A stretch of DNA of 64,000 bases from Tepidisphaeraceae bacterium (GTDB taxonomy: Bacteria > Planctomycetota > Phycisphaerae > Tepidisphaerales > Tepidisphaeraceae): the NCBI GenBank assembly GCA_035998445.1, contig DASYHQ010000052.1, positions 1 through 64,000 of the forward strand. The letters are read 5' to 3'. A program made the translations under genes and the position numbers. The notes under the pieces are model-generated. The model was not told the origin of the DNA. It was given only the letters and a program-made list of their open reading frames with translations, and ran no database searches. Position 1 is the first letter of the stretch. Each line of letters starts with the position of its first letter. Shown piece after piece: positions 7,778 to 57,972 of the stretch.

Positions 7778-8467
7778 ATGGCCACGAAGAAGAAGACAAC
7801 CGCAGCTCCGGCTGCCGGCGACACGGTGACGCTGGCAGACGGCTCGATCGTGCCGGTGGCGGCCGTCGAGCACATCACGCCCGACCTGCGCCCGCTGGCG
7901 GTGCCGATCGACTCGCTGACGCCCGACCCGCGCAACGCTCGCACGCACGGCGACAAGAACCGGGCGGCGATCGCCAAGTCGCTGCAGCAGAACGGCCAGT
8001 TGAAGCCGATCAGCGTCGACGCCAACGGCGTGATCCTCGCCGGCAACGGCACCTGGGCCGAGGCGAAGGCCTTGGGCTGGCAGTACATCGCCCGGGCCCG
8101 CACGGCGCTTACTGGCGCCGCCGCGATGCGGTGGGCCCTGCAGGACAACCGCACCGCCGAGCTGGCGGAGTGGGACCAGGCGGAGCTCGAACGGCAGACC
8201 GACGAGCTGGCCGCCGAACTGGACGGCTTCGACCTCGGCGACATCGGTTTCGACGAGGGCCAGCTTGAGGCGCTACTGAACGGTGACGTGAAGAAGGCGC
8301 ACGGCTTCGCACCGGCACCGCCGCCGAAGGATCCGCCCGCGGGCGAGCAGAAATACCCGTCGGTCTTCAAGATCATCATCACCTGCACCGACGAGCGGCA
8401 TCAGGCGGAGCTGATCAAGGAGTTCGAGGGGCGCGGGTACCAGTTCACGGCCCCGAACGTCACTTAG
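7778..8467 (+). CDS. ParB-like N-terminal (ParB/Srx fold) protein
   Basis: A 229-residue protein. Residues 36-115 carry a ParB/sulfiredoxin-fold domain: VPIDSLTPDPRNARTHGDKN, a helix AIAKSLQQNGQLKPI, then GVILAGNGTWAEAKALG at 85-100, the equivalent of the nucleotide-binding GxGxR region. Then comes a helical segment with WALQDNRTAELAEWD, typical of phage ParB-domain proteins often found next to DNA methylases. There is no partner ParA and no parS was seen, so plasmid-type partitioning is unlikely. It starts three bases after the portal stop and lies upstream of the ABC/GNAT gene, suggesting a joint DNA-directed role. Confidence 0.8.
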   Translation: MATKKKTTAAPAAGDTVTLADGSIVPVAAVEHITPDLRPLAVPIDSLTPDPRNARTHGDKNRAAIAKSLQQNGQLKPISVDANGVILAGNGTWAEAKALGWQYIARARTALTGAAAMRWALQDNRTAELAEWDQAELERQTDELAAELDGFDLGDIGFDEGQLEALLNGDVKKAHGFAPAPPPKDPPAGEQKYPSVFKIIITCTDERHQAELIKEFEGRGYQFTAPNVT

Positions 8468-8681
8468 CCGGCTCGTCTAGGCCGAGCTCGCCGATGAGTC
8501 GGTCGGCCGCCTCAACGGCATACCTAGCCGCTTTGGTAGGACTTAGGTCGCCAGGTCCGGCCAGCAGTCCCTGCAGAGCCATGCCCGCCGCCCATTGACG
8601 GTAGGTCATGCCGGGGACGTCAAATTGTGCCTCTGCCAATTTGCCGTTGCGGGGAAACGCCGCTTCATCGCCTAGAGCCAT
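8460..8681 (-). CDS. Small conserved phage protein of the GM(S/T)xRxWxA type
   Basis: A 73-residue protein on the minus strand that overlaps the end of the ParB-like gene by eight bases. The core VPGMTYRQWAAGMALQGLLA resembles a widespread phage small-protein family whose members contain GMSLRDWFAGQAL-like motifs and have no assigned function. The start is set by a strong ribosome-binding sequence (CAGGGAGG, 5-12 bases upstream of the ATG at 8681). A longer frame to 8705 would bury that site inside the gene. Confidence 0.6.
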   Translation of the reverse strand: MALGDEAAFPRNGKLAEAQFDVPGMTYRQWAAGMALQGLLAGPGDLSPTKAARYAVEAADRLIGELGLDEPAK

Positions 8682-8746
8682 CTGGACCTCCCTGTGAATG
8701 TGCAAGGGATTGGAAACGTAGGTAACCCGGAAAGCAAGTAGACGTG

Positions 8747-9904
8747 ATGACCAGTGCTGCCTCTCAACTCCGTCGCGAAGTGACTGTGGAGCGCACGCCG
8801 CGTTTCTACCAGGTCTGCGGCAAGTTCGACCTCCCGACCGACGCCACCAGCGTCCGCGAGTGGAACGTCGACCTGACGCTGCCGGATGAATGGAGCGTCG
8901 GCGTCATCGTCGGGCCATCGATGGCGGGCAAGACGACGATCGCCCGCGAGTTGTTCGGCGCCGATAGCGTCGTCGATGCTGGCTACTGGCCCTGGCCGGC
9001 CGGCAAGTGCATTGCCGACGGCTTCCCCGACGGCATGGGCATCGACGAGATCACCGGCCTGCTGTCGGCGGTCGGCTTTTCGAGCCCGCCAGACTGGAAG
9101 AAGCCGCACGGCGCGCTCAGTAACGGCGGCAAGTTCCGCGTCGATCTCGCCCGCACGCTCGCCGAGCGGCCCGAGCTGGCCGTCGTAGACGAGTTCGGCT
9201 CGCTCGTGCACCAGCAGGCCCGCCAAGTGGCCGCCGCCGCGGCGGCGAAGGCGGTCCGCCGGCGGGGCGGCAAGCTCGTGGCGCTCTGCGTCCACCCGGA
9301 CGCGGTGGAATACTTCGAACCGGATTGGATCATCGACATGATCCCAGGCGAAATCGTGCGGTGTCAGGCCGTAAGGGGGTCGGTTCGGCGACCGCCAATC
9401 CAGTTGGAAATCGCACGCGTCAATCGAAAGGCATGGGACCTTTTCCGACACCATCACTATCTAGACCACGCGATCCACGCGAGCAGCAAGTGCTTCGTGG
9501 CGTTCGTCGACGGGCAGCCGGCCGCGTTCACGGCGGTCCTGCCGTTCCCGCACGCGGTGAAGCCCGGTTGGCGCGAACATCGCACCGTGTGCCATCCCGA
9601 CTACCAGGGCATCGGGCTGGGCAACCGCATGAGCGAGTACGTCGCCTCGCTGTTCCGTGCCACCGGCAAGCCGTACATGAGCACGACCAGCCACCCGGCG
9701 ATGATCAAGTATCGCGCCCGCTCGCCCGTGTGGGCGGTGACGAGAAAGCCGGGCATCGTCAGCGGGTCGGCCGGCCCAAAGTCGAACCAGCAGACCGGCC
9801 TTGGGCGCACGCTGTCGACGGGGCGGATCACGGCAGGGTTTCAGTACGTCGGGCCGGCACGGCCGGAGGAGGCTCGCAAGTTCGGGGTGGTGAAATGCGA
9901 CTGA
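8747..9904 (+). CDS. ABC-type ATPase fused to a GNAT-like acyltransferase domain
   Basis: A two-domain protein of the COG2401 type (ABC ATPase plus predicted acetyltransferase); positions below count from the GTG at 8744. The ATPase half (about 1-215) has Walker A GPSMAGKT (57-64), a signature-like LSNGGK (125-130), Walker B LAVVDE (145-150) and an H-loop CVH (182-184). The C-terminal half (about 222-340) is GNAT-like: HHHYLDHAIHASSKCF, then TVCHPDYQGIGLGNRM (281-296), which is the acyl-CoA pyrophosphate-binding motif. There is no membrane domain, so it is not a transporter. The GNAT fold recalls the Mu Mom DNA-modification protein family; a modification role is inference. ATG 8747 is preferred over GTG 8744. 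Confidence 0.8.
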   Translation: MTSAASQLRREVTVERTPRFYQVCGKFDLPTDATSVREWNVDLTLPDEWSVGVIVGPSMAGKTTIARELFGADSVVDAGYWPWPAGKCIADGFPDGMGIDEITGLLSAVGFSSPPDWKKPHGALSNGGKFRVDLARTLAERPELAVVDEFGSLVHQQARQVAAAAAAKAVRRRGGKLVALCVHPDAVEYFEPDWIIDMIPGEIVRCQAVRGSVRRPPIQLEIARVNRKAWDLFRHHHYLDHAIHASSKCFVAFVDGQPAAFTAVLPFPHAVKPGWREHRTVCHPDYQGIGLGNRMSEYVASLFRATGKPYMSTTSHPAMIKYRARSPVWAVTRKPGIVSGSAGPKSNQQTGLGRTLSTGRITAGFQYVGPARPEEARKFGVVKCD

Positions 9905-10143
9905 TATCGTTCGATGTCGACAGCACCGCGGCGATCGCAGCCTTCGAGCAATGCATCCTGGAGGAGCTGCTCGTCAGGAATCAGATGAGGCGCCTTGAGC
10001 AGTTCAAGCAGATGCCACTGGAACTGGCGGCCCCACCCCGCGTCGTCTACGAGCCGCCGAGGGTGGAACCGATCCGCGGCAAGTTTCGCCGATCGGTGAC
10101 CATGGCCGATCAGTTGGCTGCAATCTGGCGGGCGTTGAAGTAA
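9895..10143 (+). CDS. Hypothetical small protein coupled to the ABC/GNAT gene
   Basis: An 82-residue protein whose ATG lies inside the end of the ABC/GNAT gene, a ten-base overlap that suggests translational coupling. It is predicted largely helical (STAAIAAFEQCILEELLVRN, then QMRRLEQFKQMPLEL), with a basic C-terminal segment GKFRRSVTMADQLAAIWRALK. No known domain is recognised. The tight coupling suggests that it assists the upstream protein. Confidence 0.55.
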   Translation: MRLISFDVDSTAAIAAFEQCILEELLVRNQMRRLEQFKQMPLELAAPPRVVYEPPRVEPIRGKFRRSVTMADQLAAIWRALK

Positions 10144-10152
10144 TCTGGCGGG

Positions 10153-10371
10153 ATGGCCAAGCCGTTTCCCTGCCCCAAATGTAATCGCCCGCTCCGGGCG
10201 TCCGGCGAGATCACCGACGAATCGGGCAACACGTACCCGACGTACCAGTGCGACGAGTGCATCAAGGTCACCAACGTGTTCGGCAAGCAGATGGAACTGC
10301 ACCTGACCTTCATGGTGAAGGACGGGAAGGCCTACGACCCGGCCGAGCCCGACGGCGAGCTGAGGATCTGA
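10153..10371 (+). CDS. Zinc-ribbon protein
   Basis: A 72-residue protein with two Cys pairs, CPKC (residues 7-10) and CDEC about 25 residues later (YQCDECIKV), flanking a short beta hairpin: a classical zinc ribbon. The C-terminal part (MELHLTFMVKDGKAYDPAE) is a single beta hairpin. It ends inside the convergent XRE gene. Function is unknown; such proteins usually bind nucleic acid or a partner protein. Confidence 0.65.
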   Translation: MAKPFPCPKCNRPLRASGEITDESGNTYPTYQCDECIKVTNVFGKQMELHLTFMVKDGKAYDPAEPDGELRI

Positions 10372-10631
10372 GCCGCGGCCGCGGCGGCCGCTGACCGGCG
10401 CCGCTTCGGCATCGCCGGCGAGTCGTCGGTGAGGATGTCCAGCACCGAGCAGTCGAGGATCTCGCACAGTCGCTCGATTGTGCCGAGCTTCGGGTCGCCC
10501 TTCGTGCCGTTCGCCAGGTGGTACCACTGCTGTTTCGGCTTGCCCGTGAAGCCGTACGCCTCGCCCGCCGCTTCCATCGTGGCGAAGCGTTTCTTCCGTA
10601 ACGTCTCGATCTTCTCGCGGTCCAGCGGCAT
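10332..10631 (-). CDS. XRE-family helix-turn-helix regulator
   Basis: A 99-residue Cro/C1-type DNA-binding protein. Residues 5-70 hold the five-helix domain: EKIETLRKKRFATMEAAGEA, YGFTGKPKQQWYHLANG and TIERLCEILDCSVLDIL. The C-terminus is a low-complexity Ala/Ser tail. It is the last gene of the minus-strand operon amidoligase - amidotransferase - XRE, so it is a good candidate for autoregulating the operon promoter near 12320. The tail overlaps the convergent zinc-ribbon gene by 40 bases. Confidence 0.75.
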   Translation of the reverse strand: MPLDREKIETLRKKRFATMEAAGEAYGFTGKPKQQWYHLANGTKGDPKLGTIERLCEILDCSVLDILTDDSPAMPKRRRSAAAAAAAQILSSPSGSAGS

Positions 10632-10664
10632 CGCTCGTCTCCGGTTGAGGGGCGGCGGCGGCGT

Positions 10665-11384
10665 TCAGCCGCCGCGGTAGCTGGCGAAATCATACTGCCG
10701 CGCTGCGTAGGTTTCGCCCGCGATGGCGACGCGCCGGCGCGTGATGCCCGCCGCGTCGATCTCGATCGCCTGATTGTCCTTCAGCGATCGCACCGCACCC
10801 GGCAGGCCCTGCGGCAGCGACGCGAGGTAGATTCCGCGTGGGTTCGACCCGACGTGCAACGGGTTGCCGCGTCGCGCGGCGATCAGCTTGGCCGGCCGCG
10901 TCCAGATCGACAGCGTGGCGAGGCAACCGCTCGTGTGCTCGATCGCCTCGGCGGTTCGCCGGGCAAAGCCCGATGCCTCGCTCCGCTCGATCAACTGGCC
11001 GATGGCCTCGCTGTCGCACACGCTGGTCGGAAACAGGTTCTGTTCGTCGAGCAGATCCTCATAGTTGGCGACGATGCCGTTGTGCACGAGCCAGCCGCCA
11101 TCCACCGGGTGCGGGTGGTTGTTCGTGTTGTCGGTCGCGTCGCCATGGGTGGCAAACCGCAGGTGGCCGACGAGCATGCAGGCGTCCCGCAGGATCGGCA
11201 GCATCTTCAGGTGGTTCGTCAGCCGGCCCGGCGACTTGTAGCAGTGCAGCCGACCGCGCGAGTCGATCCAGGCGAAGCCGAAGGCGTGGGGGCCGCGGCT
11301 GATGTTCACGTTGATGATGCGGCGGAGAATGGTCAGGTCGACCGGCTCACCCTCGCGGGCGACGTATCCGAAAATCGAGCACAT
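10665..11384 (-). CDS. Class II glutamine amidotransferase
   Basis: An N-terminal-nucleophile (Ntn) amidotransferase of 239 residues that releases ammonia from glutamine. Cys2 (MCSIFGYV) would be the nucleophile after Met removal. The expected family segments follow: ISRGPHAFGFAWID, VGHLRFATHGD (Gln-binding Arg and Thr), NNHPHPVDGGWLVHNG (the HNG motif) and VCDSEAIGQLIE. It lacks the sugar-isomerase domain of GlmS, so it is a free-standing glutaminase that must hand ammonia or an acyl group to a partner, most likely the adjacent amidoligase. A good ribosome-binding site (GGAAAGGA) precedes the ATG. Confidence 0.9.
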   Translation of the reverse strand: MCSIFGYVAREGEPVDLTILRRIINVNISRGPHAFGFAWIDSRGRLHCYKSPGRLTNHLKMLPILRDACMLVGHLRFATHGDATDNTNNHPHPVDGGWLVHNGIVANYEDLLDEQNLFPTSVCDSEAIGQLIERSEASGFARRTAEAIEHTSGCLATLSIWTRPAKLIAARRGNPLHVGSNPRGIYLASLPQGLPGAVRSLKDNQAIEIDAAGITRRRVAIAGETYAARQYDFASYRGG

Positions 11385-11415
11385 GTGCAGTTCCTTTCCG
11401 AGCGTGAGAGCGAAC

Positions 11416-11441
11416 GGGGCCGCGACACGTGCCGCGGCCCC
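11416..11441. other. GC-rich intergenic hairpin inside the amidoligase operon
   Basis: Nine perfect base pairs (GGGGCCGCG with CGCGGCCCC) around an eight-base loop lie in the gap between the amidoligase and amidotransferase genes. There is no T run on the minus strand, so it is more likely an RNA processing, stability or attenuation element than a terminator. Confidence 0.45.
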
Positions 11442-11456
11442 CGGCGGCCCGACCCG

Positions 11457-12278
11457 TTACCGGGTCGAACCGTCATACTTGCGGGCCAACTTCATCAGCG
11501 TCCGCTTGGCGCGCGTAACGACGGTGACCGGTGCTCCAGCGACGTTCCCGTAGGTGTAATCGGTGCGGCCCTTTGTCCAACCCAACTGATAGAAGAGGCG
11601 ATTCAGGGCCGTCTGCCCCTCACCCTTGCGGGCGATCGGGCTGGTCGGTGAAACGGGTTTGGCGGTCCAGTTCGTGACGCGGGCGGCCTTCAACGACCGT
11701 TCCACCAAACCGACGGCCATCATCACGTGGGCGATGATCTTCGATTCGTTCAGCGTCCCGGCGAACGCCCGAAACTCAACCGTGGGCTTGACGGTGGCGA
11801 GGTTGCAGACGTGGTAACGGTCCGCACGGGCGTAGCGCGTCGCGTCGACCGCGTTGCCGTACCGCTGAATCGGGCGGCAGTAGTCGCCACGCTCGCGGCT
11901 GTGCGTCCCGGTGCTGGCGTAGATGGCCTTTTCGACGTTCGCCACGAGCGTCGTCAGCTTGGCGGTCGCGATGGCATCCGACTTGTTGAACCCGACGTGA
12001 ACGTGCAGGCCGCAGGTCTGGTTGACGGTCCCACCGATCGACTTAATGAACGCGACGGCCGCGATGATCGATTCGACGCCCTCGGCACCCTTCAGCACCG
12101 GCGACACGAACTCGCACCCGACCCGACCGCGACCGGAACGGATCGAACCGTCGCGAGCGGCGGTCCAACCCGGCAACTGCGGGATGGGCTGGCCGTGCCC
12201 GTAGCTACCGATCGTGAGCGTGTTCGCGGGGATCGTGGTCTCGATTTCGATGCCGAAGGTGATTTCCGAAGCGTTCAT
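11457..12278 (-). CDS. Amidoligase (COOH-NH2 ligase, glutamine synthetase-like fold)
   Basis: A 273-residue protein with the Amidoligase_2 signature set. An N-terminal FGIEIETTI carries the metal-binding Glu residues, GCEFVSPVL follows, then TCGLHVHVGF (residues near 85-95) and TVEFRAFAGTL near 175. This fold forms amide or peptide-like bonds using ATP. Pairing with a class II glutamine amidotransferase is a recurrent gene neighbourhood in phages and bacteria, in which the pair is predicted to build an unusual amide on a peptide, metabolite or other target. First gene of a minus-strand operon whose promoter lies at 12318-12345. The real substrate is unknown. Confidence 0.88.
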   Translation of the reverse strand: MNASEITFGIEIETTIPANTLTIGSYGHGQPIPQLPGWTAARDGSIRSGRGRVGCEFVSPVLKGAEGVESIIAAVAFIKSIGGTVNQTCGLHVHVGFNKSDAIATAKLTTLVANVEKAIYASTGTHSRERGDYCRPIQRYGNAVDATRYARADRYHVCNLATVKPTVEFRAFAGTLNESKIIAHVMMAVGLVERSLKAARVTNWTAKPVSPTSPIARKGEGQTALNRLFYQLGWTKGRTDYTYGNVAGAPVTVVTRAKRTLMKLARKYDGSTR

Positions 12279-12317
12279 CTGTCTGTCCCTTTCGTGTTCG
12301 TTGACTGTTATGCGATA

Positions 12318-12345
12318 AGTATACCTCGTAAGGCTACTACGTCAA
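12318..12345 (-). promoter_or_regulatory. Sigma70-type promoter of the amidoligase operon
   Basis: On the minus strand TTGACG (12345-12340) and TATACT (12323-12318) are spaced by 16 bases, five of six matches each to the -35 and -10 consensus, 40 bases upstream of the amidoligase start. A short palindrome TTAT-GCG-ATAA (12308-12318) abuts the -10 box and could be the operator for the XRE regulator encoded last in the operon. It is one of the most AT-rich patches in the head region, pointing to expression independent of the late genes. Confidence 0.65.
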
Positions 12346-12432
12346 GCCGAAATGAGCGAAATTTGGCCGAAAATCGGTGAATTCGCCTAAGTGCTGGTTT
12401 GGCGTGAGTTTCGCCGGATGGAGCCGAGAACG

Positions 12433-14085
12433 ATGAGCGATTCCCAACTATTAGAGCGCCGTACCTCGTGGCTCGGCGTCGGCGGCATGCACCTGAACGA
12501 GTATCAGGGCGCGTGGGCGATCTACCGTCCCTACGGGGAGGCGATGATCCAGCAGGCCCGGCGCATGAACGTCCGCCTGCACGTCAAACAGCAGGAACAA
12601 GCCGTAGCGCAGCAGGCGGCCCAACCCCTCGCCGAGGGCGAGGGGCAGCCGGCGGGCGGCTTCAACGGGATGTTGACCGGCGATGGCATCGCGGTCATCG
12701 AGATCAGCGGCACGATGATGAAGTTCGTGTCGAGCATGAGCAGTGGCGTCAGTACCGTCCGCGTGCGCCAGCAGGTGCGGCGTGCCAAGGCTGACCCCAA
12801 CGTCGTCCGCGCGATTATCATCATCGAGTCGGGCGGCGGCACGGTGGCGGGCACGCAGGAACTGGCCGACGACATCGCGGCGCTCGCCGCGGTCAAACCC
12901 ACCGCGGTCTTCGTCGATGGCCTCATGTGCTCGGCCGCCCTTTGGGTCGGCTCCCAGGCGAGCGTGATCAGCGCCAGCAAGACGTCGATCGTCGGGTCGA
13001 TCGGCGCGATGAGCGCCGTCGTCGATTACTCGAAGTGGGCGATGAAGCAGGGCATCAAGGTGCACGTGCTCACGAGCGACGGCGCCGAGACCTACAAGGG
13101 CGCGGGCACGCCCGGCTCGAAGGTGACCGACGCGCAGATCGCCGAATGGCGGCACATCCTCAACAGTCTGGCCGACGAGTTCTTCGCTGGCGTCGCGGCG
13201 GGGCGCAAGCTCCCGCTCGCGAAGGTCCGCGAACTGGCGACCGGACAAGTGTGGATCGCCGAGGAGGCGAAGGCACACAAGCTCGTCGACCACGTCGAGA
13301 CGCTCGACGCCGCGATGCAGCGCCTCCGGGCGATGCCGGTGCGGGCAGCCCAGTCACAGGCTCGGCGAGCTGACGATGGCGGCCTGCAGATCGCCGCCGA
13401 TCAACAGAACAACGAACTACAGGCCAGCGGAACGTCCGCCGGCCAACCGAGGGCCGAGGAGGCGGGCACGCAGTCGCCCGCCGTCGCCGAGGCCGTGTCC
13501 CCAGATGAGGAGACTCTCATGAGTCAGCAGCAGCAGGGGGCCACGTCCCCCAACACCAGCGCCGCGGCGGTGATCGCCGCCGCCACCACCGCAGCGGCGG
13601 CCGCAACCGGCACCGTCGAGCAGCCGAAGGCCGCGAACATGGCTGAACTGAAGGCCGCCTGCCCGGGCGCCGCCAGCGACTTCCTGGTTGAGCAGTCCGA
13701 GAAGGGCGCGACCGCCGCTCAGGCGCAAGTCGCGTTCATCGGCTGGCAGGGCGCGCAGATTCGCTCTCGCGACGAGGAACTGGCGACGCTCAGGGGCGAG
13801 AAGGCCGCCGCCGCCGCTACGACCACCGAGACGACGGCTACGACTACCACCGCACCGGCGGCGACGGTGACCACGCCCGCGGCGAAAAAGCCTGGGGTGG
13901 CGGCGCTGGCTAGTGCCCCGGCCGAACAGACCGGCGCCGGCGCGTACAGCGGCGACCCGAAGGCCGAGCTCGACACCCGCGTCGCCAAGCTCACCGAGAA
14001 CGGCCGCATGGGACGTGCTCAGGCGGTGGGCAAGGTGTTCGCAGCGGATCCCGCGCTCCACGAGGCGATCAAGGCACTCCGGTAG
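12433..14085 (+). CDS. S49 (SppA/lambda gpC-like) prohead protease with scaffold domain
   Basis: A 550-residue head-maturation protease fused to a scaffold. Residues 80-330 form the S49 serine protease: DGIAVIEISGTMM, IESGGGTVAGTQEL, the nucleophile Ser167 in DGLMCSAALW, the glycine-rich SIVGSIGAMSAVVD, and Lys222 in TYKGAGTP as the general base. The remaining C-terminal region is Ala/Gln/Thr-rich and helical, as expected for a scaffold released by proteolysis. Possible starts are GTG 12391, ATG 12418 and ATG 12433; the last follows a GGAG nine bases upstream and was chosen. An internal start at 13519 makes the scaffold alone. Confidence 0.88.
   Translation: MSDSQLLERRTSWLGVGGMHLNEYQGAWAIYRPYGEAMIQQARRMNVRLHVKQQEQAVAQQAAQPLAEGEGQPAGGFNGMLTGDGIAVIEISGTMMKFVSSMSSGVSTVRVRQQVRRAKADPNVVRAIIIIESGGGTVAGTQELADDIAALAAVKPTAVFVDGLMCSAALWVGSQASVISASKTSIVGSIGAMSAVVDYSKWAMKQGIKVHVLTSDGAETYKGAGTPGSKVTDAQIAEWRHILNSLADEFFAGVAAGRKLPLAKVRELATGQVWIAEEAKAHKLVDHVETLDAAMQRLRAMPVRAAQSQARRADDGGLQIAADQQNNELQASGTSAGQPRAEEAGTQSPAVAEAVSPDEETLMSQQQQGATSPNTSAAAVIAAATTAAAAATGTVEQPKAANMAELKAACPGAASDFLVEQSEKGATAAQAQVAFIGWQGAQIRSRDEELATLRGEKAAAAATTTETTATTTTAPAATVTTPAAKKPGVAALASAPAEQTGAGAYSGDPKAELDTRVAKLTENGRMGRAQAVGKVFAADPALHEAIKALR
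13519..14085 (+). CDS. Nested scaffold protein (Nu3-like) from an internal start
   Basis: An in-frame ATG at 13519 inside the protease gene is preceded by GAGGAG seven bases upstream, one of the best ribosome-binding sequences in the operon. Translation from it gives 188 residues (MSQQQQGATSPNTSAAAV onward), exactly the scaffold part without the protease. Lambda makes Nu3 from within gene C in the same way. The product is Gln/Ala-rich, then helical (MAELKAACPGAASDFLVEQS), with a charged C-terminal end (LHEAIKALR) that could bind capsid protein. Confidence 0.7.
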   Translation: MSQQQQGATSPNTSAAAVIAAATTAAAAATGTVEQPKAANMAELKAACPGAASDFLVEQSEKGATAAQAQVAFIGWQGAQIRSRDEELATLRGEKAAAAATTTETTATTTTAPAATVTTPAAKKPGVAALASAPAEQTGAGAYSGDPKAELDTRVAKLTENGRMGRAQAVGKVFAADPALHEAIKALR

Positions 14086-40641: not shown

Positions 40642-40986
40642 ATGGCCGACGCAAAAGACAGTGAAACGAAGCAGCCGAAGGCGACGCGCCGGCGCCAGCC
40701 ACGCCAGGGCGACTTGTGGACGTTGAGGGACGTCGGCCGACGCCTCACGTGCGCCGACGAGACGGCCGCCCGCTGGCTCGAAAAACACAACGTTGCGCGC
40801 TACGACATCGGCACCGGCAGCCGCGACGAGATCCGGGTGAAGCCGGCCGACGTCGAGGCCGCGCTCGAAGGTTGCCTCGTGTCCGGCACGCCCGCAGCGG
40901 CCACCCATGAACGGCACGAGCGCGGTTACACGCCGAAGTACAGGCCCAGCCGGAGCGACGGCGGCGCGGTCACGTCGTCTCGGTGA
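40642..40986 (+). CDS. Excisionase-like / helix-turn-helix protein
   Basis: A 114-residue basic protein. ATG 40642 has GAGGT six bases upstream. The core DLWTLRDVGRRLTCADETAA, RWLEKHNVARYDIGTGSRDE, IRVKPADVEAAL is a winged-helix of the MerR/excisionase type in which an N-terminal helix pair is followed by a hairpin. It is convergent with the integrase, overlapping its last 17 bases, the usual xis-int relation with opposite orientation. Confidence 0.62.
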   Translation: MADAKDSETKQPKATRRRQPRQGDLWTLRDVGRRLTCADETAARWLEKHNVARYDIGTGSRDEIRVKPADVEAALEGCLVSGTPAAATHERHERGYTPKYRPSRSDGGAVTSSR

Positions 40987-42346
40987 CGGGTTGCACGTCA
41001 GCAGTCGCCGCCGGTTGTTCCTCCGGCGGCTTCGGGTCGATCGCCCCCAGTTTCTCGACCAGGTTTTCCAGCGTCAGTTCGTTGGGATCACAAGCGAAGA
41101 GCGTCCGATGAACGTAGTCCGTCACAGCTCGCAGCCGCTCGATCGGGATCGCTCGCACGTAGTGCGGGTCCATCCCGGTCAGGTCCTGCCCCTGGATTCG
41201 GCGGACCGCATCCTTGTCCTTCGTGTCGTTGCCGATCGTCGCGAACGTCCGACGCAGCGCGTAGAAGGCGCGCTTCTTTCGCTTCATCGGCCGGGTCACA
41301 AGCCCGCCTCGGCTGTCCGGCTCAGTGACCGTCAGCTTCGCCTCGAACTTCCGGTGTGCCGTGCCGATCTCGTCGTTCGGCGCGACCTCGCCGATCGTCC
41401 CGTCCTTGTCCTCGAAGAACTCGCGCACCCAGGCGTGCCCGCACCGCGTGCGGAACAGCAGGCCCTTCGCGTCGTCACACACGGTGTCGGGGCGGATCGC
41501 CATCGCCTTGCGGATCGCCTCCGCGGTGACCGGCCAGACGGTCAGTTGGAAGAGCTCCTCGGTCTTCGTCCTAACCCAATCGACGTACAGCTTGGCGAAG
41601 TCGAGCTTCCGCTCGGGCAGGTCGCTGATGTGGCTCTGGCCCATGCCGCCGTTGAGCCCCAGCAGCACGAACGACAGGATGTTCCACTCCTCGGCCTCGC
41701 ACGCCGCGATCACCTGCAGCCGGCACTCCTGGGGCGAGTAGATGGGCATGCCGTGTTCGTCCTCCATCTCGCGCCGCTCGCGCTTCACGTGCTTCTGCTT
41801 GGCCTTGGCCAGCGCGTCGTCCTCGTGACGGGCGACGGTGAGCAGCGGGCGCGGCTTGAGCTTGTAGGCCCAGCGGAGCATCTTCTTGGTCTTCGTGACG
41901 TAGCGGTTGAAGCTCGTCAGCTGCATGCGCCGCTTCAGGTGCGTCCGGTACTCATCGAGCGGCGGGATGTCGGCCGCCAGCCGGTCCTCGCCGGCCCAGG
42001 TCCGGAACGCCAGGGCGGCGCGGCGCAGGTCGTCGAACTCGCGGATGCCGATGTCGCCGGCGCGGAATCGCTCCTCCTGGGCAATGATGAACCGGTCGGT
42101 CAGCTCGAGGACGGTCACGCGCGACGCGTCGGCCGTGACGGGCTGGCGGTCAGCGAGGATGTCGGGCAGCTCGCGGAGGAACCGCTCGCGTGCGGCCGTC
42201 TCGTCTTTGCCGAAGTAGAAGTTCCTTCGCCGGCCGTGGACGCGCTTCGGGATGTACCACTGACCGTTGGGGTGGAGGCGCAGTTGCGGGATCTTCTTGC
42301 CGCGCCCTCGCTTGACGGGACGTTGGGGGGCCGTACGATCAGTCAT
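40970..42346 (-). CDS. Tyrosine recombinase, divergent planctomycete type (prophage integrase)
   Basis: A 458-residue integrase. ATG 42346 has GGAGG nine bases upstream. An N-terminal basic region (GKKIPQLRLHPNGQWYIPKR) and SAM-like core-binding helices are followed by the catalytic domain: LLGLNGGMGQSHISDLPE in place of the usual TGLR-x-x-EL box I, YALRRTF in place of HxLRH, and DPHYVR with the nucleophilic Tyr. The box I Arg is missing and the box II His is Tyr, as I recall for many planctomycete integrases. It marks the right end of the phage genome. Confidence 0.82.
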   Translation of the reverse strand: MTDRTAPQRPVKRGRGKKIPQLRLHPNGQWYIPKRVHGRRRNFYFGKDETAARERFLRELPDILADRQPVTADASRVTVLELTDRFIIAQEERFRAGDIGIREFDDLRRAALAFRTWAGEDRLAADIPPLDEYRTHLKRRMQLTSFNRYVTKTKKMLRWAYKLKPRPLLTVARHEDDALAKAKQKHVKRERREMEDEHGMPIYSPQECRLQVIAACEAEEWNILSFVLLGLNGGMGQSHISDLPERKLDFAKLYVDWVRTKTEELFQLTVWPVTAEAIRKAMAIRPDTVCDDAKGLLFRTRCGHAWVREFFEDKDGTIGEVAPNDEIGTAHRKFEAKLTVTEPDSRGGLVTRPMKRKKRAFYALRRTFATIGNDTKDKDAVRRIQGQDLTGMDPHYVRAIPIERLRAVTDYVHRTLFACDPNELTLENLVEKLGAIDPKPPEEQPAATADVQPVTETT

Positions 42347-42470
42347 GGCGACAACCTCCGGCCGGATTATATCGGCCTGTTCGGTGGAAGTAAGGTTGTC
42401 GTTAAGGGTTGTCGAACGCATCAGGCAAAGCAGCCCGAAAACGTCGTAAGTCCGCTAACTACGGCGATTA

Positions 42471-42544
42471 GCACTCGTAGCTCAATTGGACAGAGCATCG
42501 GTCTTCGGAACCGAGGGTTACAGGTTCGACTCCTGTCGAGTGCA
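42471..42544 (+). tRNA. tRNA-Arg(TCG), probable attachment site
   Basis: A complete 74-base cloverleaf: acceptor GCACTCG/CGAGTGC, D arm GCTC/GAGC, anticodon arm TCGGT-CTTCGGA-ACCGA with anticodon TCG (reads CGA), T arm ACAGG-TTCGACT-CCTGT. No CCA is encoded. It lies between two divergently placed integrases, 137 bases from the downstream one. Tyrosine recombinases often use the 3' half of tRNA genes as attB. A duplicated 3' end was looked for by eye in the window and not found. Confidence 0.92.
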
Positions 42545-42682
42545 ATTCATTCATCTCCAAGCGCTTACGATCACGATACGTGGCGCCAGACCTGTGCTGT
42601 CTCGCGGCCTTATCACATAAAATATCAGATCCACGGCAAAAGTGGCGATATGATCTCCTGCGTCATTCGCAAGGAGAAGTGC

Positions 42683-44119
42683 ATGGCCAGATTGCCTGAC
42701 GGTGAACTTTCAAGACATCCAGTCCACGGCTTTCGCGTAACTGTCGGTCGTAAGGTGGACGGGAAACCTCGCCTGTTCTGGCTCGGGAAGAACGAGGACT
42801 ACGCACGGTTTGCTGCATGGACTTATCGAACTGGTTGGCAGCAAATGCAGGCTTGCGGAATCAAGCACTGGACCCCCGACATGGAGCAGCGGGTCAAGGA
42901 AACGATCGACTTTGCTCAGCGTGCTCTAAGAGACCGCATTCAAGACCATCAGGTCAGGGGTGAAATGATTGCCCCAGTACGAGGGATCGTCTTCCCAGGT
43001 ACCACTGCTCATATACCGCCTGCTTCGCTGGTCGAGGAGAAGCCTGTACAACAGCAGCCCGCGAAGACGCTTTATCAAGCGATCGAAACCTACCTTCAGA
43101 CGATCAAGGGCAAGCGTATCTCTGACGCCCACAAGTGGCGTGCGGAACAAGTCGTGGGCGTGACGCTCAAGCACGCGGTCCCTGACTGCCCCATGGAGCA
43201 AATTGACTTTGCTTGGCTCGACCGGCTCGCGGACCACTTCAAGTCGCGTCCCAAGTCCAGGAAGGGCAAGCGTAGAAATCGCAAACCGATCGGTCCCCAG
43301 ACCGTCAAGACGAACCTCGCGTACATCCGCCAATTCTTTGTGTGGTGCGACGACGTGACCTTCGGGGGCTGGGAAGGTCCTAGGAAACTAACCAAACCTT
43401 TCAGGGTCCGCCTCGACGACCTGCGCACACCCGCAGAACTTCGCCAGGCGAATACGATCGAGCAATTTGACCTACCGACACTTGTGAAGATCTACAGGGC
43501 CGCTAATGACTACCAGAAGGCGATCATGCTGACCGCACTGTTCACAGCCGGCACTCAACGAGAACTGGCCGTGCTTGAGAAGTCTGAGTTTGATCTGCAA
43601 GCAGGAGTGCTGCACCACTGGCGGAATAAAACTAAAATCGAGGGCCGTTTCTGGCTTCCACCGGAGTTAATCCTATTGCTAAAGGAGGAGTTCAAGAAGC
43701 ACCGGAAGCGACCTTTGGCCTTCTACACGGCCCACGGATTCTCGCTTGTCACCTACCTGAACGGAAAACTCGTAAGCGACGCGGTACGACAAATGTGGGT
43801 CGACCTCCGAGTGAAGGCTCAGGTCCCTACCGCCCTCAGCTTTAAGTATCTGCGAAAGTTCGTCGCCGACTTCATGGTCCGTCATGGCGGTGAGGCAATC
43901 GGACAGATCGCGCTTAGCCACGCGCCCACCTCAATCCTGGCGAAAAATTATACGAGAGCTCGCGATTTCGGTGCATTTAACGAGCTACAACGCCAGATGT
44001 ACGCCGAGTTTACTTCAGCTGGGATGTTTGAAACGGACTTCAGGGATGACGTCGAGCGAATCCGCCACGCAGGCCGCATGACTTCAGAGCCGGCGAAAGA
44101 CCTCATACATGAGAGTTAA
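42683..44119 (+). CDS. Tyrosine recombinase of a second integrative element
   Basis: A 478-residue integrase with AAGGAG six bases before ATG 42683. The core-binding domain includes YQAIETYLQTIKGKRISDAH; the catalytic domain has TALFTAGTQRELAVLEKSE (Arg in a shifted position of box I), FKYLRKFVADFM (Tyr for box II His) and LSHAPTSILAKNYTRA with the nucleophilic Tyr. It is divergent from the prophage integrase. Its position directly after a tRNA suggests that its element extends rightwards. Base composition is lower in GC than the phage region. Confidence 0.85.
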   Translation: MARLPDGELSRHPVHGFRVTVGRKVDGKPRLFWLGKNEDYARFAAWTYRTGWQQMQACGIKHWTPDMEQRVKETIDFAQRALRDRIQDHQVRGEMIAPVRGIVFPGTTAHIPPASLVEEKPVQQQPAKTLYQAIETYLQTIKGKRISDAHKWRAEQVVGVTLKHAVPDCPMEQIDFAWLDRLADHFKSRPKSRKGKRRNRKPIGPQTVKTNLAYIRQFFVWCDDVTFGGWEGPRKLTKPFRVRLDDLRTPAELRQANTIEQFDLPTLVKIYRAANDYQKAIMLTALFTAGTQRELAVLEKSEFDLQAGVLHHWRNKTKIEGRFWLPPELILLLKEEFKKHRKRPLAFYTAHGFSLVTYLNGKLVSDAVRQMWVDLRVKAQVPTALSFKYLRKFVADFMVRHGGEAIGQIALSHAPTSILAKNYTRARDFGAFNELQRQMYAEFTSAGMFETDFRDDVERIRHAGRMTSEPAKDLIHES

Positions 44120-50795: not shown

Positions 50796-51189
50796 GCGAG
50801 GGATGGCGAAGTAGTGGTTATCCTGTTCGGGCGCACGAGAGCATGGCCGAACAATCGCTTGGATTTGTGAGTGCGTTGCTCTGTCGGTAGCAGTTACTCG
50901 TGCCGAGGCCACGTCTTCGGGTGACCCTGAGCATCACTTGTGCAGCGACAAGGCAAGGGTTGGGGAGGACGAGATCGCAGAAGCCGATGATCCGCTGGCG
51001 TGCGCGTTCTTCCCCTCCTTACACTAAGGATTCCGAGCCGCGGCGTCGGTGCTCGTGGCGACGATCGTCCGGTTGCTCCGGAACAATCGCGACGTGAAGG
51101 CCGGTACGGGCATGATCGGACCCGGCCGTCTTTCGTGGCTACGCGATGCCTTTGACGGCCATGACGCCGTCCCCTACCCTGCCCGCACT
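50796..51189. other. Spacer between the Gam region and the NERD gene
   Basis: Nearly 400 bases without a convincing gene. In-frame starts upstream of the NERD protein exist at 51049 and 51112, but codon use and the lack of a ribosome-binding site argue against them. It marks the change back to higher GC. Confidence 0.4.
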
Positions 51190-51963
51190 ATGCGTAAACC
51201 GGGGAAAAGGTCGCCGTTCCAACGCCGTTCGTTGCCTCAGGCGGGCGAGTCGCTGGGCCAGGAAGCGATCGATCTGTTCTTCGACCGGTTCTTCATCTAC
51301 TTCGTATGTTCCCTGGCGCTCGTGGTCGTCGGCATCTGTGAGTTGATCGCGCGTTGGATCGGCGGTCCCATGTCGCCCTGGCACTGGATCATCGTGGGGT
51401 CGGTCATGGGCGTACTCGCGCTGTGGCGGGGCTATCGAATCAAGCCGCAACTGGAACGGATCCGCCTGGGTCGCCAGGGTGAACGCGAAGTCGGGCGAAT
51501 GCTGGAACGCCTTCGCCGAGACGGCTACGACGTCTTTCACGACATCCCCGGCAATGGCTTCAACGTCGACCACGTGATCGTCGGCCGTGGTGGCGTCTTC
51601 GCGATCGAAACGAAGACGGTCTCCAAGCCGACCGACCACGACGCTCAAATCGTCTACGACGGCGAACGGGTGCTGATTGACGGCTTCACGCCCGACCGCG
51701 ATCCAATCAAGCAGTCCAGGGCGGGCGCCGCCCACGTGGCAGATATCCTGAACCGCATGTCCGGCCGCAATGTCGAGGTGCGGTCTGTCGTCCTGTACCC
51801 CGGCTGGTACGTCGACAGCAGCAAGGTCCGCGGTGAGCCGCAAACGTGGGTTCTGAACGGCAAGGCCTTCCTAAACTGGGTCGGCAACGCACCGCCCCGG
51901 CTCGGCCCGGAGGACGTCGCGCTCTACGCGGACCGCCCGACCGTGCACCTTTCATCGGATTGA
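51190..51963 (+). CDS. NERD-domain membrane protein
   Basis: A 257-residue protein with two membrane helices (FFIYFVCSLALVVVGICELI and WHWIIVGSVMGVLALWRGYR), then a NERD nuclease-related domain: GRQGEREVGRMLERLRRDGY, VFHDIPGNGFNVDHVIVG, GRGGVFAIETKTVSKP. The D-x-V...E-T-K arrangement is that of a PD-(D/E)XK-like fold. NERD proteins often occur in defence islands and on plasmids. Start ATG 51190 (MRKPGKRSPF) is tentative since no ribosome-binding site is clear. Confidence 0.78.
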   Translation: MRKPGKRSPFQRRSLPQAGESLGQEAIDLFFDRFFIYFVCSLALVVVGICELIARWIGGPMSPWHWIIVGSVMGVLALWRGYRIKPQLERIRLGRQGEREVGRMLERLRRDGYDVFHDIPGNGFNVDHVIVGRGGVFAIETKTVSKPTDHDAQIVYDGERVLIDGFTPDRDPIKQSRAGAAHVADILNRMSGRNVEVRSVVLYPGWYVDSSKVRGEPQTWVLNGKAFLNWVGNAPPRLGPEDVALYADRPTVHLSSD

Positions 51964-52207
51964 CCTCGAGCCTGCCCGCGATGTGCCTTCGTTGACACGC
52001 AGAACACCCTTTCCGGCCCGACTACGACGTGGTCGATGCTGGGGCGCCTGTGATTGTAGCTATTTTGCGGCTAGCACAGGTCGTGGCTCGCAACGTGGGT
52101 TGTCGCATAGCACAGCATCGTCGACGTTGCTGAAGAGGGCATCGTCTGCAAATCGATTCGACAGGTTGGGAGTACCCAACCTTTACCACCCGCCGTCTGG
52201 AGAGCCT

Positions 52208-52546
52208 TTAGGCTGGCTTGGTGATCTTGACCAACTGACCGGTTAGAACCGACATCCGACCTAAGCAGTCATGTATCCGCGTCGCCAACGCGATGTAGTC
52301 CGAATCGACTGTACAGGTGATGATGCCCGCGTGCGCGGGCGACTTTTCGTGTTCCTTGTGAAAGTGCTTACGATTGAGCGTGACCACCGCACGAGCGTCT
52401 TTCGTCGCGTACCGGATAACCGCATCGTCCTGTATGCGCTGATTTGCTTGGCCTGCGTCTAATGACGTTAGAACGTCGTGTCCAAGCCGGCGTAATTCGT
52501 CCACAGCAGGCTGCGGAAAGTTTTCGTTGGAATAGAGTCGGGCCAC
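52208..52546 (-). CDS. DUF5615 PIN-like toxin
   Basis: A 112-residue protein of the DUF5615/Mut7-C-type PIN-like group: MARLYSNENFPQPAVDELRR, the SNENF start being the family's usual D/N-E-N-F motif, then LGHDVLTSLDAGQANQRIQD, DDAVIRYATKDARAVVTLNR. The acidic residues at the N-terminus and after the second strand would bind metal for RNA cleavage. It usually pairs with a DUF433 antitoxin, here fused within the gene six bases upstream. Confidence 0.78.
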   Translation of the reverse strand: MARLYSNENFPQPAVDELRRLGHDVLTSLDAGQANQRIQDDAVIRYATKDARAVVTLNRKHFHKEHEKSPAHAGIITCTVDSDYIALATRIHDCLGRMSVLTGQLVKITKPA

Positions 52547-52552
52547 GGTCGG

Positions 52553-53176
52553 TTAGTCCTCCCCAGTCTGAGCGGCAATAGCCTCGTCTATCTCGTCGCC
52601 GTGCTCACGGTAGTAATTCCACGCCGCGTCGAGATCGCCGATACTCAGTCCAGGGAAATCCCCAGTCAGCTGTTCATCGGTTCGTCCCAAAGATTTCAAC
52701 TGTACAAGCGTCCAAACCGGGATGCGCGTATCGCGAATGCATGCATCGCCGCCAGCAACTCCCGGCGTCTTGTTGATGGGAGACGCAACCCGCTCGCGCA
52801 CTGCTCGCTGCGTAGATCCGATTACCTCGTTTGCCCACGCGATCAACTGTTGGACGTCCTGCAATTTGGGATCATCCGCCCCATAGACTGCACGCGATCT
52901 GGTGGACTGTGCATCGAGAAGCCGTTGGAAGACTTGTTGGTCCAGCACGCCTCTACCGATGATTTCCTCATTGATCTGGGTCAGAACTCGCGCATCGTCC
53001 GGTATGACGTGAACTGCAAGTAGCATGGCATTCATCGCCTGCCACATGGCCTGTACGGAAACGGTCATCGCGTAATACGCATCCGCTTGACTCGGATTTG
53101 CGCCAATGCGCGCCTCGACATTTCGCGTCGTACGCTCGGCGCGCCAGAGTAGAAAATACGGATTAGTCGCAACCAT
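52553..53176 (-). CDS. HEPN domain fused to a DUF433 antitoxin domain
   Basis: A 207-residue protein with two parts. Residues 1 to about 125 match the UPF0332-type HEPN helical bundle: RAERTTRNVEARIGANPSQA, DAYYAMTVSVQAMWQAMNAM, LTQINEEIIGRGVLDQQVFQ, RSRAVYGADDPKLQDVQQLI. Residues 138-198 match DUF433: GDACIRDTRIPVWTLVQLKS, then FPGLSIGDLDAAWNYYREHG. The canonical HEPN RNase motif R-x4-6-H is not seen; a Tyr is present instead. It lies six bases from the MNT-bearing gene and six from the DUF5615 gene. Confidence 0.75.
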   Translation of the reverse strand: MVATNPYFLLWRAERTTRNVEARIGANPSQADAYYAMTVSVQAMWQAMNAMLLAVHVIPDDARVLTQINEEIIGRGVLDQQVFQRLLDAQSTRSRAVYGADDPKLQDVQQLIAWANEVIGSTQRAVRERVASPINKTPGVAGGDACIRDTRIPVWTLVQLKSLGRTDEQLTGDFPGLSIGDLDAAWNYYREHGDEIDEAIAAQTGED

Positions 53177-53182
53177 AGGCTT

Positions 53183-56100
53183 TCAAAGGATTATAGCATC
53201 TTTGGAAATGTTTGCCTGCAATGGTCCAGTCTTCAACGCGTCCTTCTGGTTCATGATGATTCGATTGATTGCAACTCCATGTTGCAATGAAATGTCGGCT
53301 GTAAGCTTGCTAGTACGGCGAATTTCGCGGGCGTGGTCAAATGGGCCGTTGAGCACAATGAGGACATCTGCATCTGATCCAGGAGATGCCGTCCCACGAG
53401 CGCGGGACCCAAAAAGGACCACCTTGTCCAGCCTAGGCCGTTTTTTCGGATCATCAAGCGGACCAGGTTCGGGCGACTCTTTTCGGCCCGGATCATACAA
53501 GTCGCTGAGACCATCGCGATACTCCTGCATCGCCTTGGCAAGCTTCGGATCATCGACGACACGACCCTCTCGAGGCGTCCCGATTACCCCCGTTCGCCCA
53601 ATTAGTCCATTCAGCGGTAACCCAGCACGTAAATGATTGAGTCTAAGAAAATTAGCTAGAACCTTTTGATCGACATCAGTTCGCCGCGCGCGTAGTGGAT
53701 GCTCGAGCGACAGCGGTTGCCCCGCTCCCGTGTCCGTCCAAACCTCCGCCCAGTCCTCCGACCAGTCGCCCTCGGTGTCGACGGCGGCGTAGGCGGCGAG
53801 GACAGAGCGGTCGATCTGCTCATGGGCGAGTTTGAGCCAAGTGGGACGTTCGTTGTAGAGGTTCGTGAGCGTCCGCTTCTTCAACCGAGCATCCTTGGCG
53901 GCGGCGGCCATGATGGCGGACTGGCGGACGAGGGCGCGGGCCTCAGCGGGGACGTCGTCGAACGCGTCGGCCGCATCGATCTTCGCCGCCAACGGTTCGA
54001 TCCACTCCGGCGGGTTCAACCACCGCTCCCGCTGCTCGTTCAAGGCCTTCGCCGCCGCCGCGACCCGCAGGTAAGCTGGGTGTTTCGTGTCCTCTTTGCC
54101 GGGGGACCAGGGGAGGGGGAAGGTTTCGAAGCAAGACGACGGCGTGTATCGAAAGCCGGATTCCTCTTCGCGCAACTGGGTTCCCATGCGCCGCGCCCAA
54201 GCCTCATGTAGGGAACTTTGTAAAATGCCGAACGCGTAATCGTCAGCCCGCGCGAAAGCGAATGTAGCGGAGTCGGGGAGCGTGGGATTCGCGAACCAGG
54301 CGAAAATGCGATGCTTCGAGACGCGCGTGGTGACAATGAACCGATCCAATGTCTGCGTCGCGTTGCGTAACGCCGGGCGAGGTTCTACATGAAGCCACCA
54401 GTTCTCGGCGTATGACGCCCGGCGATTGTTGATGCGCTCCGGCTTGACCGTTGTCTCAACGTACTTGAACGCGGACTCGTAACCAGTTGCGGCTTGAAGG
54501 TTCGGTTCGCATCCGTAATCGATAATGAACATCCCACGTCGACGGCCGTTTACGTCGCTACCGTTGATCCACGGCCTGACCACATCGAGCGTGGAAGCTC
54601 CATTCGAGTTAGGCTCGCTGAACAGGGAACGGGCCTCCGCCGGGGACAGGTCAAAACCTCCACCCTTGGTCGTTCCCATAAAACAAATGCCCTCATTCTC
54701 TGTGAGGCTTCGGATCCCCGTCGTCGAAACCCCAGTTGATAGGTCCGCATTGATTTCGCTGACAGGGATACCGTTCAGATTATGTGTGGTCTCGGTCCCA
54801 TCATCGAAGCACACGATCGAGACGTGGACCATCGCCCCGTCAAGAGGCCATTCTTTGTCCTCCCACGCATTAAAGATGTCGCCGAACTCTTTTATTCGTT
54901 CCAAGACGGTTCGATTGTCACCACCGCGGATGCCTTGCGTTGCAAGAAGCCCTACACGAATCGTGTCGAATTCCTCTATGAGCCCGCGCGCCTTATCGAA
55001 CCAATAGCAGCAGAGATCCGAAGTCTTGGGAAGGTCGTACGAACGGAAGAGAGCCCGTAGGTAGTCGTCAGTCAGCCCAAATCTCCGAAACATCTTCGAG
55101 CCGAGGAACGGCGGGTTCCCGACGATGAAATCAACGCGGGGCCATTGCGCCGGCACCGGTAGCTTCTTATTCGAAAGATCCAGGATCGCGTCTCGATGTT
55201 CGACCGTATCCAGCTTGTCGAGGATCGGGGTTTTCGGGTCTTCGATGCCGTGGACGTGGAGCCACTGCAGGTAGCCGATCCAGATGACGACTTGGGCCAG
55301 TTCAGCGGCGTAGAGGTTGATCTCGATGCCGTGCAGTTGCGAGGGGCGCACGCGGGGGATCGGGTCGACGTAGATGTCGCGGCGGGCGCAGAAGCGCACG
55401 ACCTCGTCCTCCAAATCCAGCAACTGCTGCAGCGCGACGTAGAGGAAGTTCCCTGACCCGCAGGCGGGGTCGAGGATGCGCTGCTTCCTGAGGAACTGGC
55501 GGAACGACTCGACGGCGACCTTGATGGGGGCGGAGAGCACGTCGCGCCGCTTGCGGTCCTTTTCGGCATCGTGCTTGTCGATCGCGTCCTTCAGCTCGTC
55601 CTGCACCTGCTGCCATCGACGGCGCAGGGGGGCCATGATGACCGGTTCGATGACGAGCAGGATGTCGGCCTTGCTCGTGTAGTGCGCGCCGATCTGGGCG
55701 CGCTTGCGTGGGTCGAGGATGCGCTCGAAGAGCGTGCCGAAGATGCTCGGCTCCACGCCCGCCCAGTTCTGCCCGTCGCCGGCCACCCGGCGGAGGGCGA
55801 CGAGGTCGCCGTGCTTCAGCGGCAGAGCGGGGGCGTCGTCGAACAGCCCGCCGTTGAAGTAGGGGATCTTGTCGAAGCCGAACTCGCCGCCCTTCCGCAT
55901 CAGCTTAAACAACTGGTCGGCCAGCGGCTGGAACCGCTCGGGGTTCATGAGGCAGAGGTTGATGATCTTCGTGAACGCCTGATCGGGCAGCAGCTTCACG
56001 TCCTCGGCGAACAGGCAGAACATCACCTTCATCAGAAAGTGCGCCACCGGCGACCCGGCCGATTCCCACAGCTGAAGCGCGTCGGGCGGGTATCGTTCGA

Positions 56101-56668: not shown

Positions 56669-56853
56669 GATCGAGCATTGTGACGGAACGGGCAAACGTT
56701 GCCAAGCATTGGGCACGCCAATGCGCCGCAGGCACGATGCGAGATGGACGGATTTCTTTCATCGGCGGCGTCACCCCAAATCCACGGGCGTAGACGTGCC
56801 ATGTACTCCGCATAGATATTGTGGCGTCCGCACCGATCCATTAACCTCCGCCC

Positions 56854-57972
56854 ATGCCCATACCTGAGGTGGTTTACGTCCCTAGCCGCTACCCGAAAGG
56901 GGTGTCGGCGGCCGCCGGACCCGTTCTCGTACTCACGAAGGACAATTGGGACGACCGCAGCTTCAAGTCGAGCTTCGGCGTCTATCTGCTCACTCCCGGC
57001 GGGCAGAAAGAGTTGGGCGGGATTCGACTTATTGCTGGGAAGGAGCAAACAACGAGCGATGTTCTAGATGGTGCACCGCCGGCAACGCCAGGAGGAAGGA
57101 GAATTGATCTCGGTAACCGGCCGTTTCTTTCCCTAGGTACCAGCCTTGAATACTACAAACGCCTGAACGAGTTGCTGCCAATCCAAGAGGATCGGGATGC
57201 CGTCCTGGCGGCGTTGCATGATGTCGTTTATCTGGAGCATCGCACTCCTCATTCCCCGGATCTTTCGCTCAGATCAGGCAACGCATTCCGGACGTCACTG
57301 TTGCGCGGAACCGAAGAATTGTCGGCCTACGGACAGGCTCGTCAGATTCTATTCAGCAGCGAGCTCGCGCCCGACCGGTTCAATTTCACTTTGACATACC
57401 GCGTCCCACAATTTGCTGCGGATCACGCTATCCAGTTCCGCTTCGACCCCGACCCGAGCGGACCACCAAACGTCAGCGTACTGATTGGCCCTAACGGTAC
57501 TGGAAAGACGCGATCACTGTACGCGATCGTGGAGCGCTACCTCGCGGAGCCGCCAAGCGCTGCCGCACCTGCCCCAGCGAACTTTGCCCGCCTAGTAGCC
57601 GTCTCGTTTAGCCCATTTGAGCGGTTCCCGCTAAAGGCCGCGCCGGGCGTCGCTGCAGGGCCCGGCTTTACTGCCGACGCCCGCTACACCTACTGCGGAT
57701 TCCGCGCCGGTCGGGACGCTTCGGGTGAGGAAGTTGCGTGGCGACACACTTCGGAGGCGCTGGCGAAGATCCTGCGGGACGACGTCCAGCAGGTCCCGTC
57801 GCACCGTCGCCCCAAGTTCGCATCGCTCGTAAGGGTTCTCGGGGAGGCTTTGAGAGCAGAAAAGGTGGGCGTGTTAGTGGAGCTGAAGCGCGACGCCGCG
57901 CTCCCGCCTTTTCTAGCGGCCCATACGATAGTGGATGCTGATGGAACCTTGTATTTCGATGTCGGCGGGTGA
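56854..57972 (+). CDS. Septu PtuA-like ATPase, N-terminal half (frameshifted)
   Basis: The first 372 residues of an AAA/ABC-like ATPase. Walker A is at about residue 210 (GPNGTGKTRSLYAI), with FSPFERFP after it, as in overcoming-lysogenisation/RecF-like defence ATPases. The frame ends in GG-TGA at 57972 just where the ATPase sheet continues in the +1 frame (57935 onward). It is divergent from the restriction gene. With the HNH gene behind it, this is a PtuA-PtuB arrangement. Confidence 0.7.
   Translation: MPIPEVVYVPSRYPKGVSAAAGPVLVLTKDNWDDRSFKSSFGVYLLTPGGQKELGGIRLIAGKEQTTSDVLDGAPPATPGGRRIDLGNRPFLSLGTSLEYYKRLNELLPIQEDRDAVLAALHDVVYLEHRTPHSPDLSLRSGNAFRTSLLRGTEELSAYGQARQILFSSELAPDRFNFTLTYRVPQFAADHAIQFRFDPDPSGPPNVSVLIGPNGTGKTRSLYAIVERYLAEPPSAAAPAPANFARLVAVSFSPFERFPLKAAPGVAAGPGFTADARYTYCGFRAGRDASGEEVAWRHTSEALAKILRDDVQQVPSHRRPKFASLVRVLGEALRAEKVGVLVELKRDAALPPFLAAHTIVDADGTLYFDVGG

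Follow-up and report, generated by a model that had tools for sequence, protein, structure and literature searches.

The minus-strand operon at 10332 to 12345 of the window (the whole 64,000-nucleotide stretch analysed here, taken from the start of a 251-kb contig in a 5.84-Mb genome) is, by all sequence signs, a real and functional phage cassette of an amidoligase and a glutamine amidotransferase (GAT), ordinary in kind and of a lineage carried by Planctomycetota phages. We are confident of the two enzyme types and of the identity of the cassette. Three ORFs were verified in this interval, encoding the amidoligase, a class-II GAT, and a Cro/C1-type HTH protein (Table 1), and their third-position GC (0.85 to 0.92) matches that of the other phage genes. 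The plus strand runs from terminase (GpA) through portal, ParB-like, ABC-GNAT, and zinc-ribbon genes to those for the S49 protease and the major head protein, with the antisense operon filling some 2 kb between the zinc ribbon and the protease. An earlier note on this DNA had placed a minus-strand operon between portal and protease; the three ORFs do lie there, although the ParB-like, ABC-GNAT, and zinc-ribbon genes separate them from the portal. The HTH and zinc-ribbon genes overlap convergently by 40 nt (10332-10371). The hairpin between the amidoligase and GAT genes has an 11-bp stem and an RNA fold energy of -35.3 kcal/mol for 80 nt, and it lacks a T run.

Table 1. Features of the amidoligase operon and its convergent neighbor (positions in the window)
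Feature	Position	Strand	Basis or remark
Predicted sigma-70-type promoter of the amidoligase operon, TTGACG-16-TATACT	12318..12345	-	Consensus match and conserved position
Amidoligase (Amidoligase_2), 273 aa, glutamine-synthetase/gamma-glutamyl-ligase fold	11457..12278	-	PF12224, model, and fold matches
Intercistronic gap between amidoligase and GAT, 72 nt	11385..11456	-	Strong GC hairpin; a HEFxHA-type gene at this place in relative L002
Class-II glutamine amidotransferase, 239 aa, Cys right after the start Met	10665..11384	-	GATase_6 and GlmS matches
Cro/C1-type HTH protein, 99 aa, possible regulator	10332..10631	-	PF13443 HTH_26, E value 5.1e-6
Small zinc-ribbon protein, 72 aa, convergent with the pair	10153..10371	+	Constant companion of amidoligase/GAT

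The amidoligase matched PF12224 with an E value of 6.6e-20 and 72.5 bits (Pfam gathering cut-off, 22). In an alignment of 51 amidoligases, which took in distant Bacteroidales and Clostridia sequences, 12 residues were invariant (G9, E11, E13, D43, S45, E56, S59, G90, H92, N159, E168, and R170), among them E11, E13, E56, H92, E168, and R170 of the metal/ATP-binding motifs. The AlphaFold2 model (pLDDT, 96.2; pTM, 0.94) was matched over 215 to 236 residues by YbdK-type ligases (Z scores of 13.6 and 13.3), glutamine synthetase (GS; 12.8), plant glutamate-cysteine ligase (GCL; 12.6), Dop (12.4), and PafA (12.0). Besides the fold, the order of the metal/ATP motifs is shared with YbdK-type ligases, GS, and Dop-PafA, although identity to these is only 9 to 16% and the phage protein consists of just one minimal domain. 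The FGxExE, N-x2-CGxHxHVG, and VEFRxF motifs parallel FGPEPE, NGSGMHCH, and EVRFP of Escherichia coli GlnA in order and region, and we infer the residue equivalence from this motif order rather than from a residue superposition. No match was obtained by hhalign between the amidoligase profile and the single GlnA sequence, though the fold search matched GS. The sole PDB sequence match to the profile, 7on8, covered 23 residues and was rejected as a chance match.

The GAT matched PF13522 (GATase_6; E value, 2.9e-8) above the Pfam gathering score and GlmS in the PDB with an E value of 2.6e-22, and its glutaminase site (C2, R76, N102-G103, and D124) was aligned with GlmS and invariant in eight sequences. 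Loss of active-site residues, raised by the earlier note as a possible weakness, was looked for on the alignment and was not seen in either enzyme. At the level of sequence and model, this shows a GS/GCS fold for the amidoligase and a GlmS-type GAT, with the catalytic motifs of both intact. Between loci L007 and L008 (one close pair), dN/dS was approximately 0.07 for the amidoligase and 0.016 for the GAT, which indicates purifying selection; the value for L101/L104 was left out as an artefact of ungapped comparison.

We gathered nine close viral, 63 genome, and 80 viral loci, and 62 clade loci remained after dereplication. The 15 best genome matches, each with at least 38% identity, were all from Planctomycetota. 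In G018, a genome from the family to which the window's genome belongs, the amidoligase locus was identical in sequence to a locus recorded as Phycisphaerales bacterium (L025), which places the host in Planctomycetota; the marker PSD1 gave no match, with its controls silent as well. The pairing of the two enzymes, for which a gene-neighborhood comparison had been suggested, is borne out: the GAT gene follows the amidoligase gene in the same orientation, at a distance of no more than 2 kb, in 48 of the 52 loci with enough flank, and the pair also occurs in phages Edmundo and Marvin. The portal-to-capsid order of L002 is the entire order of the window, at 36 to 68% identity, and the operon insertion is therefore old; in many other relatives, the pair is antisense and adjoins the terminase instead. 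An antisense ORF cluster (c6) over the pair in relatives was dismissed as spurious high-GC reading frames. A Planctomycetaceae locus (L014:7001-11572) carries two amidoligase genes in series, with the GAT gene after the second.

The ParB-like and ABC-ATPase/GNAT fusion genes at 7778-9904 form a separate and very widespread phage pair. Acylation of DNA bases is the predicted role of ABC-coupled GNATs (PMC7824862), an ABC-GNAT gene lies within the flank in 10 of 17 close relatives, and in other relatives, e.g., L023, the amidoligase/GAT pair is near a ParB-DNA-methylase fusion. These observations would suit a joint DNA base modification, in which an acyl group attached by the GNAT would have its carboxylate amidated by the amidoligase and GAT, comparable to the carbamoylmethyl of Mu Mom. 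We consider this very improbable, however, because among 80 ABC-GNAT loci ParB was found in 78 but the amidoligase in 3 and the GAT in 2, and an ABC-GNAT gene was absent from all 22 amidoligase loci of other clades whose flanks were long enough. On this reciprocal co-occurrence we rejected an obligate functional unit and regard the two as neighboring units. A reading of the GNAT as a Mu Mom homologue likewise had no sequence-level signal, as neither HMMER nor hhalign detected similarity (hmmsearch E value, 0.12 in a one-sequence search; hhalign probability, 0.1%).

By gene-content comparison, the zinc ribbon is a more constant companion of the pair than the HTH gene. It was found in every one of the 23 near relatives (the window counted among them) whose flanks were long enough and, among the 80 ABC-GNAT loci, only where the amidoligase was present; this zinc-binding partner was previously unnoticed and is missing from the earlier note. 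That note had instead presented the XRE gene as the operon's own regulator, which was conjecture: the HTH_26 match is above the Pfam gathering score and the protein is a possible regulator, but of the nine closest relatives just L002 yielded a homologue. HEFxHA-type and ASCH proteins were each found in 15 of the 23 near relatives, and both genes are missing beside the window's operon. The HEFxHA-type protein, of 140 to 170 aa and without a Pfam match, adjoins amidoligase/GAT at L002:8844-9263, L127:7913-8341, and 13 other loci; it was rejected as a conserved peptidase because HExxH is lost in about half of the homologues, and its fold matches were weak, the best being IrrE/PprI.

The constancy of the zinc ribbon, the presence of Dop and PafA among the fold matches, and the Cys-rich CxxC motifs at the amidoligase N-terminus and GAT C-terminus of mycobacteriophage Marvin are all compatible with an amidoligase that modifies a protein side chain, as Dop/PafA do, or with a zinc ribbon that is itself the substrate or carrier, rather than with an envelope target. 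We regard this as rather unlikely, since GS and gamma-glutamyl ligases match the fold at least equally well and the C-terminus of the zinc ribbon is unconserved, without an invariant terminal Glu. LysW-type carriers use such an invariant Glu, and a LysW-like carrier was rejected on the same ground. It is similarly doubtful that amidoligase, GAT, and zinc ribbon constitute a three-part enzyme with the zinc ribbon as modified substrate or carrier or as targeting subunit; if so, Planctomycetota prophages would amidate a specific macromolecule during lysogeny.

The strongest claim of the earlier note, that the operon has a near-consensus promoter of its own, is supported by the comparison of loci. 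The site in Table 1 is the top-scoring one within 9000-14000 and sits in an AT-rich divergent gap (112 nt; GC, 0.46), with 39 nt from the end of the -10 box to the amidoligase start codon and AAGGGA as a candidate Shine-Dalgarno sequence. We scanned the 25 loci nearest to the window (window included) for sites with the -10 end 35 to 75 nt before the amidoligase start, using 300 rounds of dinucleotide shuffles for the expected counts. Sites with at least 9 of 12 matches were present in 13 loci against 0.57 expected (maximum of the 300 rounds, 4), and those with at least 10 of 12 in 8 loci against 0.06 expected; full 12/12 matches were found in L088 and L093. Repeated on the opposite strand of these upstream windows, the scan gave no sites. 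In L092 and L097, the palindrome TGTAATGT...ACATTACA is located just upstream of the amidoligase start and no sigma-70 consensus was found there, and other clades may therefore use a different control of the amidoligase. The predicted promoter probably frees the operon from late-operon control, including in lysogeny. Its antisense position to the late genes, the host-gene junction, and the integrase domain downstream make expression in lysogeny plausible, and expression solely with the late genes is unlikely, given the putative dedicated antisense promoter.

The element is a probable prophage, in that the contig joins phage genes to host genes, among them a transpeptidase gene at 208 kb, and an integrase domain is found downstream, the left end being cut by the contig edge. 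A tRNA-Arg (tcg) gene at 42471-42544 lies directly upstream of the tyrosine-recombinase domain (42650-44119). The called 1070-aa ORF (40907-44119) runs through this tRNA, and thus the true integrase start is probably near 42650, not 40907. No repeat of the tRNA-Arg end was found within the window. The integrase might be part of a second element rather than of the amidoligase-bearing phage. To the right of the integrase are a NERD nuclease-related gene at 51049 and genes for two MmeI/N6-methylase-type restriction-modification proteins (53183-56716 and 60541-63696); the segment from 44 to 56 kb, adjoining this region (51049-63696), has a lower GC (approximately 0.59). Searches for similar plasmid DNA found none, and PADLOC gave no defence-family match for the three operon proteins.

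Earlier papers already describe phage amidoligase/GAT cassettes and connect them with changes to the cell wall and with superinfection exclusion (PMC5498523, PMC10580990; PMC11318856 for the amidoligase), citing Iyer 2009 and Hardies 2013 as sources. In PSA-HP1 and its relatives, a set of seven genes is believed to alter peptidoglycan and block superinfection (PMC5498523), and the pair is also known from OM43 phages (PMC10580990), UFV-P2/LUZ24 (PMC3890496), tf (PMC3517423), and ZRK32 (PMC10945688). Of the novel amide-forming modification predicted by the earlier note, the enzyme pair with intact catalytic residues stands but the novelty does not, as the prediction had been published; likewise, a superinfection-exclusion or envelope benefit is an already published prediction for the phage cassette (LUZ24, phiEco32, PSA-HP1, and Marvin). 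The peptidoglycan modification cassette (PSA-HP1, RIO-1, phiEco32, LUZ24, tf, and PaP3; PMC5498523, PMC3890496) resembles the window in having amidoligase and GAT close together, with predicted amide or gamma-glutamyl chemistry and a superinfection role. However, the PSA-HP1 set also includes a second amidoligase together with an ATP-grasp enzyme and a gamma-glutamyl cyclotransferase, and it is located among transcription/replication genes, whereas the window has two enzymes and the zinc ribbon in an antisense position among the late genes, and its amidoligase is only about 23 to 25% identical to LUZ24-like amidoligases.

Compared with the described cassette, the window's set appears reduced, having no cyclotransferase of its own. 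A motif scan, which was positive near the pair in three relatives, found none in the first 22 kb of the window, and the only PF06094 (gamma-glutamyl cyclotransferase) match in the genome is on another contig (C18). PF14395 (COOH-NH2_lig, the second amidoligase) had no match in the genome, with the controls silent too. A cyclotransferase gene accompanies the pair in L010, L091, L122, and Arthrobacter phage Edmundo, pointing to gamma-glutamyl chemistry.

Arthrobacter phages Salgado and Edmundo and mycobacteriophage Marvin share with the window the gene order of amidoligase then GAT. The Salgado/Edmundo amidoligase is approximately 28% identical to that of the window over part of the protein; unlike in the window, a cyclotransferase adjoins the pair in Edmundo, and no separate zinc-ribbon gene was noticed in the three phages. 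Marvin gp105 (L254:45627-46988), annotated as a glutamine amidotransferase domain protein, matches the amidoligase profile, and only gp106, the amidotransferase, matches the GAT profile; Cys-rich CxxC motifs occur in both. A mycobacteriophage Tesla protein (BFVD match) was rejected as an amidoligase-GAT fusion, since Marvin of the same genus has two separate genes.

ZRK32 resembles the window's element in coming from a Planctomycetota strain and in carrying both an amidoligase and a GAT. A nitrogen role is proposed for its amidoligase, GAT, glutathione synthase, and cyclotransferase genes in the available text of its description (PMC10945688), and the window's pair could likewise be an auxiliary module of nitrogen or small-molecule metabolism, making gamma-glutamyl amides for nitrogen storage or assimilation. 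We find this quite unlikely. The same text gives no deletion or expression evidence that these genes cause the growth effect of ZRK32 (PMC10945688). Furthermore, the ZRK32 amidoligase aligns at only 27 to 29% identity across part of the sequence, much lower than within the window's own clade, and one phage pair would presumably add little flux beside the host GS.

We propose instead that the GAT would release ammonia from glutamine and that the amidoligase, with ATP, would activate a carboxylate, most likely of a glutamate-type side chain, to form an amide, with the zinc ribbon perhaps aiding substrate or partner binding. GS, GCL, YbdK, and Dop/PafA act on gamma-carboxyls; it is because of these fold relatives, and of the cyclotransferase genes that join some pairs, that a glutamate-type carboxylate is suggested. 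Glutamine-fed amide formation by the pair is reasonably likely, and alternatively the amidoligase could ligate an amine instead of ammonia, the GAT serving another step. An envelope target is put forward tentatively: our leading guess would be a carboxylate in the host peptidoglycan stem peptide, or otherwise in another envelope peptide, and the altered envelope might benefit the prophage through superinfection or lysis sensitivity. The host has Mur ligases and transpeptidases, and one transpeptidase (penicillin-binding protein) gene lies at 208 kb of the same contig.

Phage amidoligase/GAT cassettes are widespread, and in the cited descriptions their substrate is a prediction. The window's cassette differs from these in its clade of Planctomycetota phages, its zinc-ribbon partner, its smaller gene set, and its antisense position in the late operon. 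This minimal two-enzyme version, with its constant zinc ribbon and clear promoter-like site, offers a small, testable form of the cassette, which Planctomycetota phages appear to keep in an orientation that separates its expression from virion production.
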